Part shown: piece by piece, positions 16,134 to 27,047 of the stretch
Numbering within the stretch: position 1 is the first letter of the stretch
Layout of the letters: the number at the start of each line of letters is the position of its first letter
NCBI GenBank assembly: GCA_026982635.1
Contig: JALSGR010000313.1
Coordinates: forward strand, 1-37,070
Length of the DNA: 37,070 nt
From: Methylothermaceae bacterium
GTDB lineage: Bacteria; Pseudomonadota; Gammaproteobacteria; Methylococcales; Methylothermaceae
Reading direction: 5' to 3'
The notes under the pieces: generated by a model
What the model was told of the DNA's origin: nothing
The model's database searches: none
Seen by the model: only the letters and a program-made list of their open reading frames with translations
Translations under genes and position numbers: made by a program

Positions 16134-16743
16134 CGAGGAGCTGTTGCAGGCGTTTCGGCGCCTGCTGGAAGAAGCGCCGGAGCCCCCGGCGGAAGAGATC
16201 GGCTTGGCCCGGCTCTTTACCGAGTTGGCCGCCTTGCGTACCGAGGTGCATGCCGAAGGGCGGCAGGCGAAGGACGCCCTGGCGTTGTTACGCCAGAGTC
16301 TGGAAACCCTGGAGCGGCAGTACGACCACCTCGAACGGGCGGCTGAATTGCAACGGCGCCAGACCTTGGAGCCGGTCCTCCTGGATCTGGTGGATCTGCG
16401 GGACCGGCTGGCGAGGGGAATCGACGGTCTGGCGTGCTGGCGGCCCAACTGGTTCCGCCGTTTGCTGCTGGGCCGGGAGCTCGATCGCCTGAAGGCCGTC
16501 GTCGAGGGACAGCGCTTGACCCTGGAGCGTTTCGACCAGTGGCTCCTCGGTCTCGGGCTGCAACCCATCGACGCCCTCGGACATCCCTTCGACGCCGAGC
16601 GGATGCGGGCGGCGGAGATCGTGAGTCGTTCCGATCTGGACGACGAAACCGTGGTGGCGGAGCTGCGCCGCGGCTACCTATGGCAGGGGCGGGTGCTGCG
16701 ACCAGCGGAAGTCGCCGTCAACCGTGTCGACGAACCGACGTGA
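16126..16743 (+). CDS. GrpE-like nucleotide exchange factor
   Basis: 205 aa; N-terminal coiled coil and C-terminal GLQPIDALGHPFDAERMRAAEIVSRSDLDDETVVAELRRGYLWQGRVLRPAEVAVNR, matching the GrpE beta-domain pattern. Confidence 0.85.
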   Translation: MDDEELLQAFRRLLEEAPEPPAEEIGLARLFTELAALRTEVHAEGRQAKDALALLRQSLETLERQYDHLERAAELQRRQTLEPVLLDLVDLRDRLARGIDGLACWRPNWFRRLLLGRELDRLKAVVEGQRLTLERFDQWLLGLGLQPIDALGHPFDAERMRAAEIVSRSDLDDETVVAELRRGYLWQGRVLRPAEVAVNRVDEPT

Positions 16744-16747
16744 AGCG

Positions 16748-18463
16748 ATGAAGGAACCGATCATCGGCATTGATCTCGGCACCACCTATTCGGAGGTGGC
16801 GCTGCTGGAGGCGGGGCGCCCCAAGGTGCTGGCCGACGCCGAAGGCAGGCGTTTGCTGCCTTCGGTGGTCGGCCTCGACGGTCAGGGCCGGCTGCTGGTC
16901 GGCGAAGCGGCCCTGAACCAGCACCGCCTGTTTCCCGAGCGCACCGTCAGATCGGTGAAGCGCAAGATGGGAACGGCGGAAACGCTGAAACTGGGCGATC
17001 GCTCCTATACCCCCCAGGAGATTTCCGCCATGATCCTCCGGGTACTCAGACAGCGGGCCGAAGCCTATCTGGGGCGTCCGGTGACGCGGGCGGTCATCAC
17101 CGTGCCGGCTTTCTTCAGCGAGGCCCAGCGCCAGGCCACCCGGGAGGCGGGGGAGATCGCCGGTCTGGAGGTGGTGCGGCTGCTCCATGAACCGACGGCG
17201 GCCTCGCTGGTGTACGACAGCGATCTCGACCGCAGCCGCACCGTGATGGTCTACGATCTGGGGGGCGGCACCTTCGACGTCTCCCTGGTGCGGATTCAGC
17301 AGGGGGTGGTGGAGGTGATCGCCAGTCACGGCGACAACCATCTCGGCGGTGACGATTTCGACCGAGCGTTGGTCGAACTGTTCGCCGAGCACATCGAGGA
17401 ACGAAGCGGCCGCGACGTGCGCGGGGATGCGGTGGTGGTCGCCCGTCTGCTCCGTGCCGCCGTGGCCGCCAAGCATGCCCTTTCCCAGCGGCCTTTCGTC
17501 CAGATCCGGGAGGAGTTCCTGTTCGAGCGCGGGGATGCGCCGTTCCATTTCACCCTGGAGCTGTCCCGTCGGGAATACGAGGCGCTGATCGCGCCCTACG
17601 TCGATTGCACTTTCGACGCCGTCCATAGGGTCCTGCAGGACGCCGGGCTCGGTATCGCCGATGTCGACGACGTCCTGTTGGTCGGCGGCTCGACCCGGAC
17701 CCCGCTCGTCGTCGAGCGTCTGGAAGCGCTCTTCGCCCGGCCTCCCAAGGCCGCCGTCGATCCGGATCTGTGCGTGGCCATGGGGGCGGCGATTCAGGCC
17801 GGCATGCTGGCGGGGGAACCGGTGGCCTCGGTCCTGGTGGACGTGACTCCCTACACCTTCGGCACCGCCATCGTCGGGGAGCTCGACGGGCGCCCGCATC
17901 CCAAGGTTTTCGTGCCCGTCATCCGCAGAAACACGCCCCTGCCGGCTTCCCGGAGCGAGGTGTTCTACACCCTGGAAGACGGGCAGGAAGCGGTGGAAGT
18001 GAACGTCTATCAGGGGGAAGATCCCGACGCCGGCAACAATCTTCTCGTCGGTTCGTTCACCGTGGAAGGTCTGCGTCGGGCGCCGGCTCCCGATCCCATC
18101 GTGCTGCGCTTCGATCTGGACCTCGACGGAATGCTCCGGGTGACCGCCACCGAAAAGGCCACCGGCCTGGAAAAACAGGTACGCATCGACAAGGCGGTCG
18201 AGCCCCTGGATCGCCGGGCGCTGGCGCGCTCCTACGGTAAGGTGGCGGCCCTGTTCGACGAGAAGGATGAGCCGGCGCCGAGGATACGTCGCCTGCTGAA
18301 CCGGGCGGAAGCCGTGCTCGCCCGGGTGAACCTGGCGGAGGACCGGGCGGAGATGACGCGGTTGATCGAATCCCTGCGGGCGGCGATGGATCGGGGGAAC
18401 CAAGGGGAGATCGAACGGGCCGCGGAAGCCCTGGAAGAATTGCTGTATTATCTGGAAAGCTGA
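16748..18463 (+). CDS. Hsp70 family chaperone (short, HscC/DnaK-like)
   Basis: 571 aa; IIGIDLGTTYSEVALLE, VITVPAFFSEAQRQATREAGEIAGLEVVRLLHEPTAASLVYD, VYDLGGGTFDVSLV, VLLVGGSTRTPLV; short lid, no canonical EEVD-like tail. Confidence 0.95.
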   Translation: MKEPIIGIDLGTTYSEVALLEAGRPKVLADAEGRRLLPSVVGLDGQGRLLVGEAALNQHRLFPERTVRSVKRKMGTAETLKLGDRSYTPQEISAMILRVLRQRAEAYLGRPVTRAVITVPAFFSEAQRQATREAGEIAGLEVVRLLHEPTAASLVYDSDLDRSRTVMVYDLGGGTFDVSLVRIQQGVVEVIASHGDNHLGGDDFDRALVELFAEHIEERSGRDVRGDAVVVARLLRAAVAAKHALSQRPFVQIREEFLFERGDAPFHFTLELSRREYEALIAPYVDCTFDAVHRVLQDAGLGIADVDDVLLVGGSTRTPLVVERLEALFARPPKAAVDPDLCVAMGAAIQAGMLAGEPVASVLVDVTPYTFGTAIVGELDGRPHPKVFVPVIRRNTPLPASRSEVFYTLEDGQEAVEVNVYQGEDPDAGNNLLVGSFTVEGLRRAPAPDPIVLRFDLDLDGMLRVTATEKATGLEKQVRIDKAVEPLDRRALARSYGKVAALFDEKDEPAPRIRRLLNRAEAVLARVNLAEDRAEMTRLIESLRAAMDRGNQGEIERAAEALEELLYYLES

Positions 18464-19110
18464 TGGCGAACTGCCCGGTCTGCCGTGCCGAACTGGAACA
18501 GGCGGTGTGCCGGCGCTGCGGCTGTGATCTGGAACTGGCCCGCCGGGCCGGTCGGGCGGCCGAGCGTTTGCTGCACCAGGCGCTGGCGGCACTGCGGGAG
18601 GGGCGTGACGATGACGCCTTCCACCTGGCACGCCAGGCCCGGGCCCTGGATCATTGCCGCCTGGCCGCATTGATCGAGGAACTGGCGCGGTGCAGCTGGC
18701 GCTATTGGATTCCGGAGGACCGTCAGCTTCACCAGATCCGGGAAACGGTGCGCGAGGCGGCGGACCGGGTTTACCGAAAACTGGGCGCCGGGCTGCGCCG
18801 AGAGGTCTACGCCACCGCCCTGACGCTGGAATTCGCCGGCCGGGAGCTTTCCTTCGAAACCGCTGTGCCGGTGAAGGTGGCCTACGGCGGCGGGGAGTTC
18901 ACGACTTCCTACCGCATCGACTGGCTTTTCGCCGGCCGGCTTGCGGTGTCTCTGGGAGAAGCCGATAATTCTGAGCGGCTGCGACGGGATTTGGCCGCCA
19001 TGGTGCGACTGGCGCGCCTGGAGGCGGGGATATGGCTGGTCTTCCCGCTCGGGGAGCCGCCCCGAACGGGATGGGTGTTGTCGAGACGGAGTGGAGGGAG
19101 CGAGTCATGA
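18463..19110 (+). CDS. Zinc-ribbon protein with C-terminal GxxExxY-like (PD-(D/E)XK superfamily) domain, probably catalytically inactive
   Basis: N-terminus CPVCRAELEQAVCRRCGC (CxxC...CxxC); C-terminus VYRKLGAGLRREVYATALTLEFAGRELSFETAVPVKVAYGGGEFTTSYRIDWLFAGRLAVSL resembles the GxxExxY family; start/stop overlap with Hsp70 gene. Confidence 0.65.
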   Translation: MANCPVCRAELEQAVCRRCGCDLELARRAGRAAERLLHQALAALREGRDDDAFHLARQARALDHCRLAALIEELARCSWRYWIPEDRQLHQIRETVREAADRVYRKLGAGLRREVYATALTLEFAGRELSFETAVPVKVAYGGGEFTTSYRIDWLFAGRLAVSLGEADNSERLRRDLAAMVRLARLEAGIWLVFPLGEPPRTGWVLSRRSGGSES

Positions 19111-19541: not shown

Positions 19542-20831
19542 ATGAAAGTCTTGATCGTCGGCAGTGGCGGCCGGGAACATGCCCTGGCCTGGAAGATGGC
19601 CCAGGGGGAAGGCGTGGAACGGGTCTACGTGGCGCCCGGCAACGCCGGTACCGCCCTGGAGCCGGGAGTGGAAAACGTGCCCGTCGAAGTCGGTGACATC
19701 GCGGCCCTGGTCCGGTTCGCCGAGGAACGGCGGATCGACCTGACCGTGGTGGGCCCCGAAGCGCCCTTGGTGGCGGGGATCGTCGATGCCTTCCGGGAAC
19801 GGGGGCTGCCCTGCTTTGGCCCGACCCGGGCCGCCGCCCGGTTGGAGGGCTCCAAAGCCTTCTGCAAGGATTTCATGCGGCGCCACGGGATTCCCACCGC
19901 CGCATACGCCGCTTTCACCGAACCGGAGGCGGCCGTCGCCTACGTCCGGAGCCGGTCCCTCCCCATCGTGATCAAGGCCGACGGCCTTGCCGCGGGCAAG
20001 GGAGTGGTGATCGCCCACTCCCTGGCGGAAGCGGAGGGCGCCATCCGCGCCATGATGACGGACAAGACGTTCGGCGAGGCGGGCAGTCGGGTGGTGGTGG
20101 AGGAATATCTGCCCGGGGAGGAGGCCAGTTTCATGGTCATGGCCGACGGTCGGGACATCGTTTGCTTCGCCACTTCCCAGGACCACAAGCCCCTGCTCGA
20201 CGGCGACCAAGGCCCCAACACCGGTGGAATGGGGGCCTATTCCCCGGCGCCGGTGATCACCCCGGCGGTTCACCGGCGCATCCTCGAGCGGATCGTCCGC
20301 CCCACCATCGAGGGCATGGCGGCCGAGGGGACGCCCTACACCGGCTTTCTCTATGCCGGTCTGATGATCACGCCGGAAGGCGAGCCCAAGGTGCTGGAAT
20401 TCAATTGCCGCCTCGGGGATCCGGAAACCCAGCCGTTGATGATGCGGCTCAGGAGCGATCTGGCCCAACTGTGCCTGGCTGGTACGGAAGGAGGGCTGGC
20501 GCGCCTGGCGACCGAATGGGACGAGCGTACCGCCCTCGGTGTGGTCATGGCGGCGGAAGGCTATCCGGGCAAGGTGCGGACCGGGGATGTCATCGAGGGT
20601 CTGCCGGCGGAGGAGACCGAGGACGTCAAGGTGTTCCATGCCGGCACCCGCCTGGCGGACGGCAGGGTGGTGACCGCCGGCGGGCGGGTGTTTTGCGTCT
20701 GCGCCCTGGGCGAAACCGTGGCCGCGGCCCAGCGCAAGGCCTATGAATGGGTGGAGCGGATCCGCTGGCCCGGGGTCCATTACCGCCGCGACATCGGCTG
20801 GCGCGCCTTGCAGCGGGAGCGGAAAGGCTAG
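19542..20831 (+). CDS. purD: Phosphoribosylamine--glycine ligase
   Basis: 429 aa; MKVLIVGSGGREHALAWKMAQ, DQGPNTGGMGAYSPAPV, EFNCRLGDPETQPLMMRL. Confidence 0.98.
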   Translation: MKVLIVGSGGREHALAWKMAQGEGVERVYVAPGNAGTALEPGVENVPVEVGDIAALVRFAEERRIDLTVVGPEAPLVAGIVDAFRERGLPCFGPTRAAARLEGSKAFCKDFMRRHGIPTAAYAAFTEPEAAVAYVRSRSLPIVIKADGLAAGKGVVIAHSLAEAEGAIRAMMTDKTFGEAGSRVVVEEYLPGEEASFMVMADGRDIVCFATSQDHKPLLDGDQGPNTGGMGAYSPAPVITPAVHRRILERIVRPTIEGMAAEGTPYTGFLYAGLMITPEGEPKVLEFNCRLGDPETQPLMMRLRSDLAQLCLAGTEGGLARLATEWDERTALGVVMAAEGYPGKVRTGDVIEGLPAEETEDVKVFHAGTRLADGRVVTAGGRVFCVCALGETVAAAQRKAYEWVERIRWPGVHYRRDIGWRALQRERKG

Positions 20832-21658
20832 AGGGCCTGCCACACCGGCGTCACGCCGGGCGGCAGGGGTGCCAACCGACCCAGCTCGGTCCAGGGGAAG
20901 GCGGGGTCGTGGAAGTCGGAGCCTACCGAGCCCAACAGGCGGTAGCGACGGGCGTAATCGGCGCAGGTAGCGATCTGTTCGGCGGTGCTGTTGCCGCTGA
21001 CCACCTCGATGCCGAGGCCGCCGGCGGAGCGGAAGGCGGTCAGGAAACGGCGCAGCCAGCTGGCGGTGATTCGGTAGCGCAGTGGGTGGGCCAGCACGGC
21101 GATGCCGCCGGCTTCCCGGATCCATTCCAGGGCCTGTTCCAAATCCGCCCACCGGGTGGCGACGTAGCCGGGTTTGCCCCTCACCAGATAGCGTTCGAAC
21201 GCTTCCGCCACCGACGGGGCGTAATGGCGGGCCACCAGGAAACGGGCGAAGTGGGTGCGGGTGATCATGCCGTCGCCGGCCATGTCCCGCACGGCTTCCA
21301 GACTGCCGCCGATGCCGTGCTTCTCCAGGTCGGCCGCCATCCGTTCGGCCCGCAGGTCACGCAGACGTTGCAGTTCCGCCAGCCCCCCTTTCAAGACCTC
21401 ACAGTCGGGATCGGTGCCGAGGCCGATGACGTGAAAACATTTCTTCTCCCAGGTCACCGAGATTTCCACCCCGGGGATGAGTTCTAGGGGTAGATCTTCG
21501 GCCGCCCGCCGGGCCGCGGCGATGCCGGAGACGGTGTCGTGGTCGGTGAGGGCCAGGTGGCGCACGCCGTGCGACGCGGCCCGGCGCACCAGTTCGGCCG
21601 GTGACAGGGCGCCGTCGGAGGCGGTGGAATGGCTGTGGAAGTCGTAGCCGGAACTCAC
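20828..21658 (-). CDS. PHP-domain phosphoesterase, RNase AM/YciV-like
   Basis: 276 aa; YDFHSHSTASDGALSPAELVRRA...LTDHDTVSG, PGVEISV, AHPLRY, GSDFH. Confidence 0.88.
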   Translation of the reverse strand: MSSGYDFHSHSTASDGALSPAELVRRAASHGVRHLALTDHDTVSGIAAARRAAEDLPLELIPGVEISVTWEKKCFHVIGLGTDPDCEVLKGGLAELQRLRDLRAERMAADLEKHGIGGSLEAVRDMAGDGMITRTHFARFLVARHYAPSVAEAFERYLVRGKPGYVATRWADLEQALEWIREAGGIAVLAHPLRYRITASWLRRFLTAFRSAGGLGIEVVSGNSTAEQIATCADYARRYRLLGSVGSDFHDPAFPWTELGRLAPLPPGVTPVWQAL

Positions 21659-23481
21659 GACAGGGCCTGCTGGCGTTCCCCGTAGAGCCGGGCGTACAGA
21701 CCGCCCTGGGCCATGAGATCGTCATGGCCGCCCTGTTCGCAGATTTGCCCGTCCTCGAAGACATAGACGTGATTGGCCTGGCGCACCGCGCTGAGGCGGT
21801 GGGCGACGATCAGGGTGGTGCGGCGCTCCAGGAAATCCGCCAGCGCCCGGTGGAGGCGGCGCTCGGTTTCGGTGTCCAGGGCGGAGGTCGCCTCGTCGAA
21901 GATGACCACCTTCGGGTCGGCCAGAATCATACGGGCGATAGCCAGACGCTGGCGCTGGCCCCCCGAAAGGCGCATTCCGGCGCGTCCGATGACGGTATCG
22001 AGACCGTGGGGAAGGGCCGCGACCGTGTCGCTCAATTGGGCGATCTCCAGCGCCTGCCACAGGCGGCGGTCGTCCATCTCCCGGCCCAGGGTGAGGTTGG
22101 CGCGGATGGTGTCGTGGAACAGCACCGGATGCTGGAGTACGGTCACCACGTGCTCCCGCACCACGTCCATGCCGATGCGGGTGATCGGCTCGCCGTCGTA
22201 ATACACCATGCCCCGCTGTGGGGCGTAGAGACCGATCAACACCTGGACCAGGGTGGACTTGCCCCCGCCGCTGGCGCCGACCAGGGCGACGGTTTCCCCG
22301 GCCGGAATGTCGAGGCTGACCCCTTTCAGGACCTCCTGTCCGTGGCCGTAGCGGAAATGGAGGTTTTCCACCCGAACGCCGACGGTCCGTTTGCCGAGGA
22401 AGGGATTGGCCAGATGGGGGTAGCGGGGTTCCTGCTCCAGTTCCAGAAGGCGGTTCAGGCGGGCCAGGGCGGCCTGAGCGCTGTAGAAGGCGTACTGGAT
22501 CCCCAGAAGTTCCTGGACCGGGGACATCATGAACCAGAGGTAGCCGAACACCGCCAACATCTGGCCGATGGTCAGGTCGGAGAACAGCACCATGGCCATG
22601 GCCGTGGCCCGGAACAGATCGACGCCGTGCAGGAACACCACGAAGCTGAGGCGGTTGAGGGCGTCGCTCTTCCAGGCATAGTGGGTCGCGGTCCGCCGGA
22701 CCCCGTCGGCGTGATCCGCCAGACGCTCGAAGTAATGACGTTCCCGGTTGCTGGCCCGGATTTGGTGAATGGCCTCCAGGGTTTCCGTCAGGGCCTGCTG
22801 GAAAGCTTCCAGGGCGCCGTTCTCCTTCTTTTTCAGCCGTTTGACCTGCTTTCCCAGGGCTCGGGTGAAATAGATCACCATGGGGTTGAGACAGAGGATG
22901 AACAGGGCCAGGGGCCAGTGGATCCACAGCAGGATGGCGGCGGTGCCCAGTATGGTGAGGAAGGCGATGAGCGAACGGCTGATGGTGGTGCCGAGGAAAT
23001 GGTCCAGGGTGTCGACGTCGGTGACCAGATGGGTCACCACGGTGCCGCTGCCGAGGGATTCGTATTCGGCCATCGACACCCGTTCCAGCCGCCGCAGCAG
23101 ATCGCGGCGCAACCGGTAGGTGACATCCTTGGAAATTTCCGTGAATCGGCGGGTCTGCCAGACGTTGAAGCCTAGGGCGAGCAGGCGCAGCAGAAAAGAG
23201 ACCAGCAAGATGACCGCGATGTACCACAGGGTGTCCTGCCATCGGGGGGGCAGGGGCGGTGCCGGCAACCATCGGTCGATGAAAGCGGTCACCGGGCCGC
23301 GGTGGCCGAGCAGGACCTCGTCCACCAGGGTCGGGATCAGCAACGGAACCGGGACCGCCGCCAGCGCCGCTAGCAGGGCGACCACGTGGGCACCGATCAA
23401 CTTGCGCCGGTGTTCCAGGGCCAGGCGGATCAACAAGCGCCAGTCGTAGCGGCGCGGCGGCAGGGAGACGGTCCGGGACAT
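21655..23481 (-). CDS. ABC exporter (fused permease/ATPase, MsbA-like fold)
   Basis: 608 aa; six-TM-type N-terminal half; Walker A GASGGGKST, LSGGQRQRLAIARMILADPKVVIFDEATSALD. Confidence 0.93.
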   Translation of the reverse strand: MSRTVSLPPRRYDWRLLIRLALEHRRKLIGAHVVALLAALAAVPVPLLIPTLVDEVLLGHRGPVTAFIDRWLPAPPLPPRWQDTLWYIAVILLVSFLLRLLALGFNVWQTRRFTEISKDVTYRLRRDLLRRLERVSMAEYESLGSGTVVTHLVTDVDTLDHFLGTTISRSLIAFLTILGTAAILLWIHWPLALFILCLNPMVIYFTRALGKQVKRLKKKENGALEAFQQALTETLEAIHQIRASNRERHYFERLADHADGVRRTATHYAWKSDALNRLSFVVFLHGVDLFRATAMAMVLFSDLTIGQMLAVFGYLWFMMSPVQELLGIQYAFYSAQAALARLNRLLELEQEPRYPHLANPFLGKRTVGVRVENLHFRYGHGQEVLKGVSLDIPAGETVALVGASGGGKSTLVQVLIGLYAPQRGMVYYDGEPITRIGMDVVREHVVTVLQHPVLFHDTIRANLTLGREMDDRRLWQALEIAQLSDTVAALPHGLDTVIGRAGMRLSGGQRQRLAIARMILADPKVVIFDEATSALDTETERRLHRALADFLERRTTLIVAHRLSAVRQANHVYVFEDGQICEQGGHDDLMAQGGLYARLYGERQQALS

Positions 23482-23488
23482 CGGACGG

Positions 23489-25447
23489 TCAAAAGCGCAG
23501 GCAGGGATGGATCTTGTCCACCTGGTCCGCGCTCAATTCGGCCGTCGGGGGGCTGAGACGGCGGTAGAGCGCCAGTTCTTCCAGGGACAAGGGGCCGGCG
23601 ATCCGTTCCAGTTGGGTCAATTTCAATCCCTGACGCACGAGGAAGCGGAGATAGGTGTGCCGCAACGCTTCCGGCGTGACGGTTTCCGGTTCCTGGATTT
23701 CCGCTTCCACTGCGGTGAGATACAGCATTTTGTTCACCTCGTCCTCCCGGCTGGGAAGCAGCGGCGTGTTGCCGCTGGCCGCCAACCAGGTTTTCAGGCG
23801 CGGCCCCAGTGGCAGAGGGCGGCGATGGGGAGACGGGGCGAACAGCAGATTCTGACGGAAGTCGAAATCGGTGGCGTTGATGCGGGTGATTTCGTCCGGG
23901 GTCAGGCCGCTGAGAAGCAGAGCGATCGTTTGTCGGGTCCGCAGGTCGGCGTGGGTCAGCAGGCGGTCGAGTTCGTCGCGGCTCAGCTCGCGGGGGGAGG
24001 GGCTTTCCAGTTCCGCGGCCGGTGCCGCTTGCCGTGCCAGGGAGTCGGCCGCCGGCCGGATGGCGTCGATCAGCGGACGGCCCTCCGTCTGGGGATAGAC
24101 GTGGACACCGGCGAGGGTCAGGCGGGTTTCCGGCGGATTCTCCTCGCGCCGGGTAAGGTATTCCAGCAGCCAGACCGCCAAGAGGCCGGTTCCCAGTGCC
24201 CCGAGCGTCACCAGGGCGGCGTCACGCCAATAATGGGGGCGGATCGGGTACTGGGGTCGGTAGGCCCGTTCCACCACTTCCACCTGGGGATATTTTTCCA
24301 TTTGTCTGACTTCCAGCCGGGTGATGCGATCCTGGAGCTCGCGCTGGGTTTCCTCCAATTGCGCCAGTTCCTTGATCAGCGCTTCGTGTTCGGCGAAGCG
24401 GTTGCTGAACTCGGTCGCCAGGCGTTTGTGTTCCTGCAGTTGCTTCTCGATTTCGATGACGGCCCGGCGAGCGCCGGCATAGTCCTGTTCCGCTCGGGCC
24501 AGCACGATGCGTCGTCCCCGTTCCACCAGGGAGGCGATTTTCGCCTCCACCTCCCTGAGCTGCTCGGGAATCTTGCGGTAGGCGGGATTGAGGCGGATGT
24601 ATTCCGGGGTGAAGCGCTGCTGCAGTTCGGTCAGCCGTTCTCGCAGGGCCTGGGCCCGTTCCTCCAGCATGGCCAGCACCCGCTTGTCCTCGTCGGGTAC
24701 CACCGGCTTGCCGCGCTCGATCGCTTCCCGGATGGCGTCCAGATGGGCCTTGGCCTTCACCGCCGCTTCGTTGGCGTCGTTGAGGGAGCGGGTCAATCCC
24801 TTGAGGCGGGCGAGGGTCGCGTTTTCACTGCGTTCCAGCGAGGCGATGTCGTGGCGGCGACGGAATTCGTCCAGGGTTTTCCGCTTGGCGACGATCTTTC
24901 CCTCCAGGGTGGCTAGTTGCCGCCGCAGGGCGTCGAGGGTGGCCCCGGTGGTCGCCTGAATCTCCCGGGCACGGGTTTCCATGTACACGTCGATCCACGT
25001 GTTGACCAGCGGCGCCAGCAGGTCCCGGTCGGTGCCCTCGGCGCGCAGTTTCACCAGATTGGTGTCCGGGACCGGTTCCACGCTCAGCATCCCCTTGAGA
25101 TCGGCGGGAGTGATCCCTTCCGGCAATAGGCCCTGCCATTCCAGGCGGTTCAGGGTCTCCACCAGCAGGGGTTGGCCGGTCAGCAGCACCCGCTGGATCG
25201 CCACGTGCTGGGGATCGACGACGATTTCGCTCTGATCGGCGGCGGGCGGCGGCGTGGTGAGCAGGGAGGCGCTGGCTTGGTATACCGGGGAACGCAGGAA
25301 CACGATCAGCAGACCCACCGCCAGCACGATGCCGCTGACCACGGCGAAGACCCGCAGTCGTCTCGACCGGTACCAGGGGATTGCAGGTGGGGCAGGCGTT
25401 TCCGGTTGCTCCGGTCCCGACAGGCGTTCGATATGAAGCTGGGCCAT
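23489..25447 (-). CDS. Wzz/GumC-type polysaccharide co-polymerase with C-terminal degenerate tyrosine-recombinase-like domain
   Basis: 652 aa; N-terminal TM (RVFAVVSGIVLAVGLLIVFLRSPVYQASASLLTT), long coiled coil, YPQVEVVERAYRPQYPIRPHYWRDAALVTLGALGTGLLAVWLLEYLTRREE (second TM), then the C-terminal LSRDELDRLL...LLLSGLTPDEITRINATDFDF...TPEALRHTYLRFLVRQG. Confidence 0.8.
   Translation of the reverse strand: MAQLHIERLSGPEQPETPAPPAIPWYRSRRLRVFAVVSGIVLAVGLLIVFLRSPVYQASASLLTTPPPAADQSEIVVDPQHVAIQRVLLTGQPLLVETLNRLEWQGLLPEGITPADLKGMLSVEPVPDTNLVKLRAEGTDRDLLAPLVNTWIDVYMETRAREIQATTGATLDALRRQLATLEGKIVAKRKTLDEFRRRHDIASLERSENATLARLKGLTRSLNDANEAAVKAKAHLDAIREAIERGKPVVPDEDKRVLAMLEERAQALRERLTELQQRFTPEYIRLNPAYRKIPEQLREVEAKIASLVERGRRIVLARAEQDYAGARRAVIEIEKQLQEHKRLATEFSNRFAEHEALIKELAQLEETQRELQDRITRLEVRQMEKYPQVEVVERAYRPQYPIRPHYWRDAALVTLGALGTGLLAVWLLEYLTRREENPPETRLTLAGVHVYPQTEGRPLIDAIRPAADSLARQAAPAAELESPSPRELSRDELDRLLTHADLRTRQTIALLLSGLTPDEITRINATDFDFRQNLLFAPSPHRRPLPLGPRLKTWLAASGNTPLLPSREDEVNKMLYLTAVEAEIQEPETVTPEALRHTYLRFLVRQGLKLTQLERIAGPLSLEELALYRRLSPPTAELSADQVDKIHPCLRF
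23495..24003 (-). other. Integrase-like C-terminal domain within the Wzz/GumC-like CDS
   Basis: Pattern match to tyrosine recombinases: SGLTPDEI (TGLRxSEL position), RRPLPLGPRLKTWL (R-x-VPL), TPEALRHTYLRFLVRQG (tpHxLRHTxat.l...G), IAGPLSLEELALYRRL (LGHssi.tt..Y). Confidence 0.6.
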
Positions 25448-25464
25448 GGGTCGCCTCGCGGTGT

Positions 25465-26544
25465 TCAGGGTAACAGCGCCAGCAGATGGTGCAGCCGGGC
25501 CTCCAAAGCCCGGGCGCTCGACGCCCGCACGGTGGCGTGGCCCACCTTCCGCCCCGGACGCTCCGCCTTGCCGTAGAAGTGGCAGTGAACCCCCGGTTGC
25601 TCCAGCACGTCAGCCAGGGTGGGGAGAACGCCGATGAAATTCACCATGGCGGCATGTCCCACCGGTTCCGTGTCCCCCAGGGGGAGATCCAGGATGGCGC
25701 GCAGGTGATTCTCGAACTGGCTGATTTCGCTTCCCTCGATGGTCCAGTGCCCCGAGTTGTGCACTCTCGGCGCCATTTCGTTGGCGAGCAGCCGGCCCTG
25801 GACCTCGAACATTTCCAAGGCAAGGACACCGACGTAGTCCAAATGTTCCAGCAGACGGCGGGCGTAGTCTTGCGCCGTGGCCGTCTGGGAGTCCCCGGGG
25901 CGGCAGCGGGCCACGTGGAGAATGCCGTCTTTGTGAACGTTCTCGCTCAAAGGATAGAACGCCGTGTCGCCGTTGCGGCGGCGCACCGCGATCATGGACA
26001 CTTCCCGCTGGAAGGGGATGAAGCTTTCCCCGATCAAGGGTTGGCCGCCGAGTTCCCGCCAAGCCCGTTCCATGTCGGCGGCGGTTCGCACCAGGATCTG
26101 TCCCTTGCCGTCGTAGCCGAAGCGGCGGGTTTTGACCAGGAACGGCCAGCCCAGGGTTTTGGGGGCTTCCCCCAGATCGCCTTCGTCGTCGATAGGGAGG
26201 AACTTGGCGGTAGGGATGTCGAGACGGCGGAACAGGTTTTTTTCCCGCAGCCGGTCCCGGCTTTCCGCCAGCGCTTGCAACGGAGGATGAATGCGGGTGC
26301 GCCCTTCCAGTTCCTCCAGTCCTTCCAAGGAGACGTTCTCGAATTCGTAGGTGATGACGTCGCAATCCTCGGCCATCCGGGCCAGGGCGTCGCGGTCGTC
26401 GTAGGGGGCGCAGATGTGATCGGCCAGGGGAGCGGCGCAGGCGTCCCGGGCCGGATCCAGCACGGTGAAACGCAGCCCCAGGGGATAGCCCGCCAGGATC
26501 AGCATACGCGCCAATTGCCCTCCGCCGATGATACCCACCCTCAT
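25465..26544 (-). CDS. purK: 5-(carboxyamino)imidazole ribonucleotide synthase
   Basis: 359 aa; [48 protein letters not shown]. Confidence 0.97.
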
Positions 26545-27047
26545 GGCTGTTCCCCCCGGGGATCGGGATGGGCCAGGACCGCTTCGGTCTGGCGCTGCCG
26601 GAAGGTTTCCAGGGCGGTGCCTACTTCCGGATATTTCCCGGCGAGGATGGCCGCCGCCAGCAAAGCGGCGTTGGTGGCGCCGGCGCGGCCGATGGCGAGG
26701 GTGGCGACGGGAATGCCGGCGGGCATCTGCACGATGGACAAGAGGGAGTCGAGGCCGTTGAGGGCCTTGGACGGCACCGGGACTCCCAGCACCGGCAGCG
26801 TGGTCTTGGCGGCCACCATGCCGGGAAGATGGGCGGCTCCGCCGGCCCCGGCGATGATGACCTGGAGTCCCCGTTGCTTGGCTTTGCCGGCATAGTCGAA
26901 AAGCAGGTCCGGCGTGCGATGGGCCGAGACCACCCGGACTTCGAAGGGAATCGCCAGTTGCTCCAGTATGTCGGCGGCGTGATGCATGGTTTCCCAGTCG
27001 GACTGGGAGCCCATGATCACCCCCACCAGCGGTTTGCTCTGCATCAT
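26541..27047 (-). CDS. purE: 5-(carboxyamino)imidazole ribonucleotide mutase
   Basis: 168 aa; [40 protein letters not shown]. Confidence 0.97.

Follow-up and report, generated by a model that had tools for sequence, protein, structure and literature searches.

The window, by which we mean the whole analysed stretch of DNA (37,070 nucleotides), comes from a draft assembly of 328 contigs (genome G000), and at positions 23489 to 25447 it holds a 652-aa ORF that an earlier note had described as a Wzz/GumC-like chain-length protein fused to a degenerate tyrosine-recombinase-like domain. The coordinates given there are correct and the gene lies on the minus strand, where it runs from ATG to stop with no break in the frame; the plus strand has internal stops over the same positions. 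The gene, its parts and its nearest neighbours are as follows.

23489..25447, minus strand: whole ORF (652 aa), PCP-2-like co-polymerase with a C-terminal degenerate tyrosine-recombinase domain (ORF reading, full-length relatives)
25292..25363, minus strand: TM helix 1, residues 29-52, preceded by RSRRLR, N terminus predicted inside (hydropathy; AF2 helix 29-52)
24236..25291, minus strand: periplasmic part, residues 53-404, with a long coiled coil (141-385), matches to TIGR03007 and EpsF and a weak match to Wzc (profiles, AF2)
24152..24235, minus strand: TM helix 2, residues 405-432 (hydropathy, AF2)
23987..24151, minus strand: variable and probably disordered cytoplasmic linker, residues 433-487 (pLDDT below 50; dN/dS above that of the flanking domains in most pairs)
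23492..23986, minus strand: degenerate tyrosine-recombinase-like domain with C-terminal extension, residues 488-652 (profiles, AF2/Foldseek, hhalign)
23900..23902, minus strand: Thr516 at the catalytic Arg I position (Arg in 27/27 recombinases, 0/54 in the family)
23819..23821, minus strand: Arg543, hairpin Arg, retained in 53/54 (family and joint alignments)
23669..23671, minus strand: Glu593 at the His II position, His in 0/54 (family and joint alignments)
23660..23662, minus strand: Arg596, Arg II, retained in 51/54 (family alignment)
23591..23593, minus strand: Pro619 at the His/Trp III position, His in 2/54 (family alignment)
23564..23566, minus strand: Tyr628 at the nucleophile position, Tyr in 44/54 (family alignment)
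21655..23481, minus strand: MsbA-like ABC exporter, 7 nt downstream; only part of the order keeps the two genes adjacent
25465..27047, minus strand: purK and purE, immediately upstream, an arrangement that only the window's genus conserves

The N-terminal part (residues 1-432) looks like a PCP-2-type polysaccharide co-polymerase (PCP). Residues 117-437 match TIGR03007, the chain length determinant of the XrtA system (6e-13), and EpsF (TIGR03017, 8e-9), with bit scores far under the curated cut-offs (47.7 against 278.9 (278.85) and 34.7 against 422.8, respectively), and by this score the ORF is not a member of TIGR03007. A profile of the full-length family compared with structures finds Wzc at 7e-10, also under curated cut-offs, and a match of the ORF to PF02706 is weak (E=0.037). 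Hydropathy and AF2 agree on two TM helices flanking a large and presumably periplasmic coiled coil, which is the PCP-2 layout, and together with the profile matches this supports both the Wzz/GumC-type identity and the TM, long coiled coil, TM arrangement claimed previously. The AF2 models are of moderate confidence and were built from a five-sequence alignment; Foldseek with the full-length model was uninformative, giving generic coiled coils only, with Wzc at rank 46. The PCP-2 layout and the basic residues before TM helix 1 suggest that the tail lies on the cytoplasmic side. In domain-profile searches of the ORF no kinase family was matched where a C-terminal P-loop tyrosine kinase domain might have stood. 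The tail does occupy the position of the BY-kinase, as had been proposed, whereas replacement of a kinase is not proven; since TIGR03007 and EpsF, the nearest named families (498 and 444 model positions), are themselves without a kinase domain, the tail is better called an addition at the kinase position.

Residues about 488-634, previously aligned by eye to a phage-integrase catalytic domain, are by profile comparison a true homologue of the catalytic domain of tyrosine recombinases (YRs). When a profile of the tails of 44 relatives was compared with PDB, the top of the list consisted of YRs only (XerA 6.5e-12, IntI4 8.4e-10, P2 integrase 1.1e-8, XerD 5.9e-6), and the first non-recombinase appeared at E=0.1. 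Alignment of the tails by hhalign with YRs of related genomes gave probabilities of 97.4% for Xer and 98.7% for other recombinases; a specific Xer origin is not supported, the non-Xer YRs having scored higher. In single-sequence searches the ORF of the window matches PF00589 at E=0.0055, which is under the curated cut-off, and NCBIfam XerA at 3e-6, while PF00589 is matched individually by 33 of the 44 tails and its cut-off is reached by one relative. The AF2 model of the tail has a pLDDT of 67, and its best 13 Foldseek matches are all YRs, with low global TM-scores (about 0.4). Remote-homology and structure comparison, two of the checks that the earlier note had put forward, both lead to YRs and bear out its alignment. 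The tail is preceded by the disordered linker and a TM helix, and neither profiles nor AF2 indicate an N-terminal core-binding (SAM-like) domain.

The catalytic pentad R-K-H-R-H and a Tyr nucleophile characterize an active YR (PMC8138268), and the family does not carry this full set. Among 54 sequences the Arg I column contains Thr (30) and Ser (17) and never Arg, and the His III column contains Pro (20), Tyr (13) and His (2); the catalytic Lys, found in 27/27 recombinases, corresponds to a gap in 44/44 tails in the joint alignment. Since Arg I, Lys, His II and His III have been lost, catalysis by the tail can be ruled out with high confidence from these alignments. The residues read by eye in the earlier note (Thr for Arg I, Glu for His II, Pro for His III, with Arg II and Tyr retained) were right, and so was its non-catalytic tail (Arg I 0/54, His II 0/54, Lys deleted in 44/44); the loss of the hairpin Lys, the retention of Arg543 and the order-wide conservation of the architecture go beyond it. 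Gly514 and Gly618 are kept in 54/54; G514, L613 and G618 are invariant across genera, and R543, Q606, Y599 and R596 nearly so. A family signature, Y-x-x-x-L-V-R-Q-G-(L/I)-(R/K), occupies residues 599-609 (window 23621-23653, minus strand), and position 609 is Lys/Arg in 49/49 family proteins and Asp in Xer proteins; this signature may mark a new binding surface.

Compared with the 27 recombinases, which come from related genomes, conserved basic residues at positions 516, 541, 576, 577, 580, 581, 588, 593 and 611 are mostly lost in the tails. At 541, 576, 577, 580, 581, 588 and 611 hydrophobic, acidic or small residues mostly replace them, and the helix 573-588, basic in recombinases, is hydrophobic or acidic in the tails. 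Mean net charge and pI are -5.1 and 5.3 for the tails against +7.0 and 9.7 for recombinase domains from related genomes, and the ranges of net charge do not overlap (-12 to +1 for tails, +2 to +16 for 27 YR domains), the window's own tail being neutral (net charge 0) and this measure still being compatible with a local basic patch. The acidic charge and the lost basic positions argue against DNA binding, which we regard as unlikely, and towards protein docking or oligomerisation. The earlier suggestion of a DNA- or protein-binding module is thus disfavoured in its DNA half, by the acidic tails and the loss of the basic helix, and favoured in its protein half.

A family member was found in 83 of 251 genomes of the order Methylococcales, all but one at E <1e-60, and 49 distinct full-length relatives from many genera of the order were aligned. 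Samples of Gammaproteobacteria and Pseudomonadota from outside the order yielded five full-length members, a sporadic occurrence. Nine fetched proteins, all of one genus-level group (g12), stop before the tail, and in a tree of the PCP part, in which some deep branches are long and of unsure placement, they form one nested clade with support 99/92; the tail has been lost once, in this clade. The existence of such a clade means that the tail is dispensable for the PCP. No stand-alone copies of the tail were seen in the tail-less genomes, where even the best matches do not go beyond E 1e-7 and were rejected as stand-alone tails, being weak and resembling ordinary recombinases. In 11 close pairs dN/dS is 0.07-0.26 for the tail and 0.04-0.18 for the periplasmic part, the linker being mostly looser; purifying selection thus acts on the tail. 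Three genomes (G235, G223 and G145; e.g. L047 and L048) each have two paralogues of the fusion protein, the second being strongly diverged.

In the window, purE, purK, the fusion gene, the ABC exporter and a PHP-domain gene follow one another closely on the minus strand (20828-27047), with 17 nt between purK and the fusion gene, and the block looks like one operon from its layout. The ABC-PHP order is common to two families, and the exporter adjoins the fusion gene in 13 loci; as a functional partner it is a weak candidate, because orthologues with 59-66% identity are present in genomes that have no fusion gene. Neighbourhoods differ between families, and most copies, including that of the window, lie outside sugar clusters. 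In three loci from the f8 family the co-polymerase gene is immediately preceded, on its own strand, by a gene for an SNF2/SWIM helicase of about 1100 aa (L040:10738-14067, L048:9914-13147, L058:10158-13475). Elsewhere in the window, a 650-aa ORF on the minus strand (16718-18670) matches PF10712 (NAD-GH) and is antisense to a long ORF on the plus strand (16724-18463); it is probably a shadow ORF and its match spurious.

A connection with the XrtA/PEP-CTERM system was looked for at the level of genomes. An exosortase-like match is present in 77 of 83 genomes with the family and in 69 of 168 others, counts that ignore kinship of the genomes and include many matches below the XrtA cut-off; at that cut-off the numbers are 53/83 and 18/168, kinship again being ignored. 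In one case (L059) the fusion gene sits just upstream of genes for a TIGR04063 glycosyltransferase and the XrtA/PEP-CTERM amidotransferase TIGR03108. No match to the XrtA exosortase was obtained in the draft assembly of the window's genome, nor in a near-complete genome with the family (G142). Since a separate, true XrtA chain-length protein (TIGR03007) is present in 10/10 genomes checked, the fusion protein may serve another polymer.

Comparison with known systems helps to place this architecture, of which we found no description in the open-access literature searched; the earlier note gave no characterised example, and the fusion of co-polymerase and recombinase is apparently undescribed. 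PCP-2 proteins of TIGR03007 and TIGR03017 resemble it over residues 117-437 and in the TM, coiled coil, TM order, whereas a recombinase tail is absent from those families. Wzc, a weak profile match, likewise is a PCP whose second TM helix is followed by a C-terminal cytoplasmic domain; that domain is a P-loop kinase, in contrast to the recombinase fold of the fusion protein. PCPs act as rings, and the BY-kinase domain of Wzc controls ring assembly and disassembly. Xer and phage YRs (PF00589; XerA 4a8e/5hxy, XerD 1a0p, IntI4 2a3v, P2 Int 5c6k) belong to the same catalytic-domain family as the tail, which keeps their Arg II, RH, the Gly and Glu of box I and, for the most part, Tyr; unlike them it is without Arg I, Lys, His II, His III and a core-binding domain, and it is acidic and membrane-anchored. 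EcpK of Myxococcus xanthus is a BY pseudokinase proposed to be a scaffold for the PCP-2 protein EpsV without phosphorylation (PMC12004946). It is the nearest functional analogy, being a dead enzyme domain with a proposed non-catalytic scaffolding role for a PCP-2 protein (PMC12004946), although it is a separate pseudokinase whose fold is unrelated to that of the tail. Animal Crypton-derived genes (PMC3212892) are also tyrosine recombinases turned host genes, but they are eukaryotic and unrelated to membrane sugar assembly.

The explanation towards which we incline, as somewhat probable, is a kinase-less PCP-2-like co-polymerase carrying a pseudo-recombinase that serves for docking or oligomerisation. 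The gene would provide Methylococcales with a second polysaccharide co-polymerase, PCP-2-like and lacking a kinase, whose two TM helices and periplasmic coiled coil would assemble into a ring serving polymerase or export machinery, probably in the setting of an XrtA/PEP-CTERM exopolysaccharide. A domesticated YR domain would have been added at the cytoplasmic base of this ring, where it would not cut DNA and probably would not bind it. By binding a cytoplasmic partner or neighbouring subunits it may control assembly and disassembly of the ring, a job analogous to that of the BY-kinase in Wzc and to the one proposed for EcpK towards EpsV.

A narrower version, which we judge unlikely, is that the tail has a structural role only and joins neighbouring PCP subunits by a recombinase-type exchange of the C-terminal helix, with no outside partner. 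Recombinase tetramers are held in a cyclic exchange of this helix and PCPs work in rings; the extension after the Tyr is conserved (S632, P633, G637, H647/Y, P648), and hhalign matches its HP pair to the HPR(G/A) terminus of Xer proteins. However, the tail is closer to non-Xer YRs than to Xer, so that the HP match may be by chance, and the 55-residue disordered linker would tether the tails loosely. Still less probable is a membrane-tethered DNA-binding regulator, which would bind a chromosomal site and couple polysaccharide assembly to transcription or chromosome position in the manner of membrane regulators of the ToxR/CadC type. In its favour, the tail shares its fold with DNA-binding enzymes and retains Arg543, Arg596 and Tyr628, and the SNF2-type helicase gene adjoins in three loci; against this, the charge range of the acidic tails is separate from that of YR domains, and the tails no longer have Arg I, the hairpin Lys, His II, His III, Arg611 or the basic helix 573-588. 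The N-terminal core-binding domain, which in Xer forms much of the DNA clamp, is also absent. That the tail is a vestigial passenger, an old fusion drifting without function, would fit its loss in one clade and the missing catalytic residues, but is very improbable in view of purifying selection in 11 pairs, residues invariant across genera, and retention both across many genera and by distant Gammaproteobacteria. Chance resemblance or chimeric assembly, to which the single-sequence Pfam score under the curated cut-off might point, is hardly credible given profile E-values down to 6.5e-12 and full-length members in many independent genomes, several of them single-contig, which exclude the assembly error that the earlier note had named as fatal to its reading.

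Returning to the pseudo-recombinase as a docking or oligomerisation module, we propose tentatively, and with more doubt than for the explanation itself, a class of co-polymerases independent of phosphorylation, whose cytoplasmic control module would be a domesticated pseudo-recombinase and not a BY-kinase or pseudokinase. Such a class would offer a testable alternative to tyrosine phosphorylation in the control of polysaccharide co-polymerases. For annotation there is a trap, since profile searches may call such membrane proteins integrase or recombinase. If the proposal is true, a DNA-recombination fold would here, in bacteria, have become a docking module of a membrane protein. The family shows a site-specific recombinase domain recruited to cell-envelope machinery across a whole bacterial order, its catalytic and DNA-binding features gone and its fold retained by selection. 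The host group consists of methanotrophs, whose polysaccharide output is relevant to biofilm growth and biotechnology.
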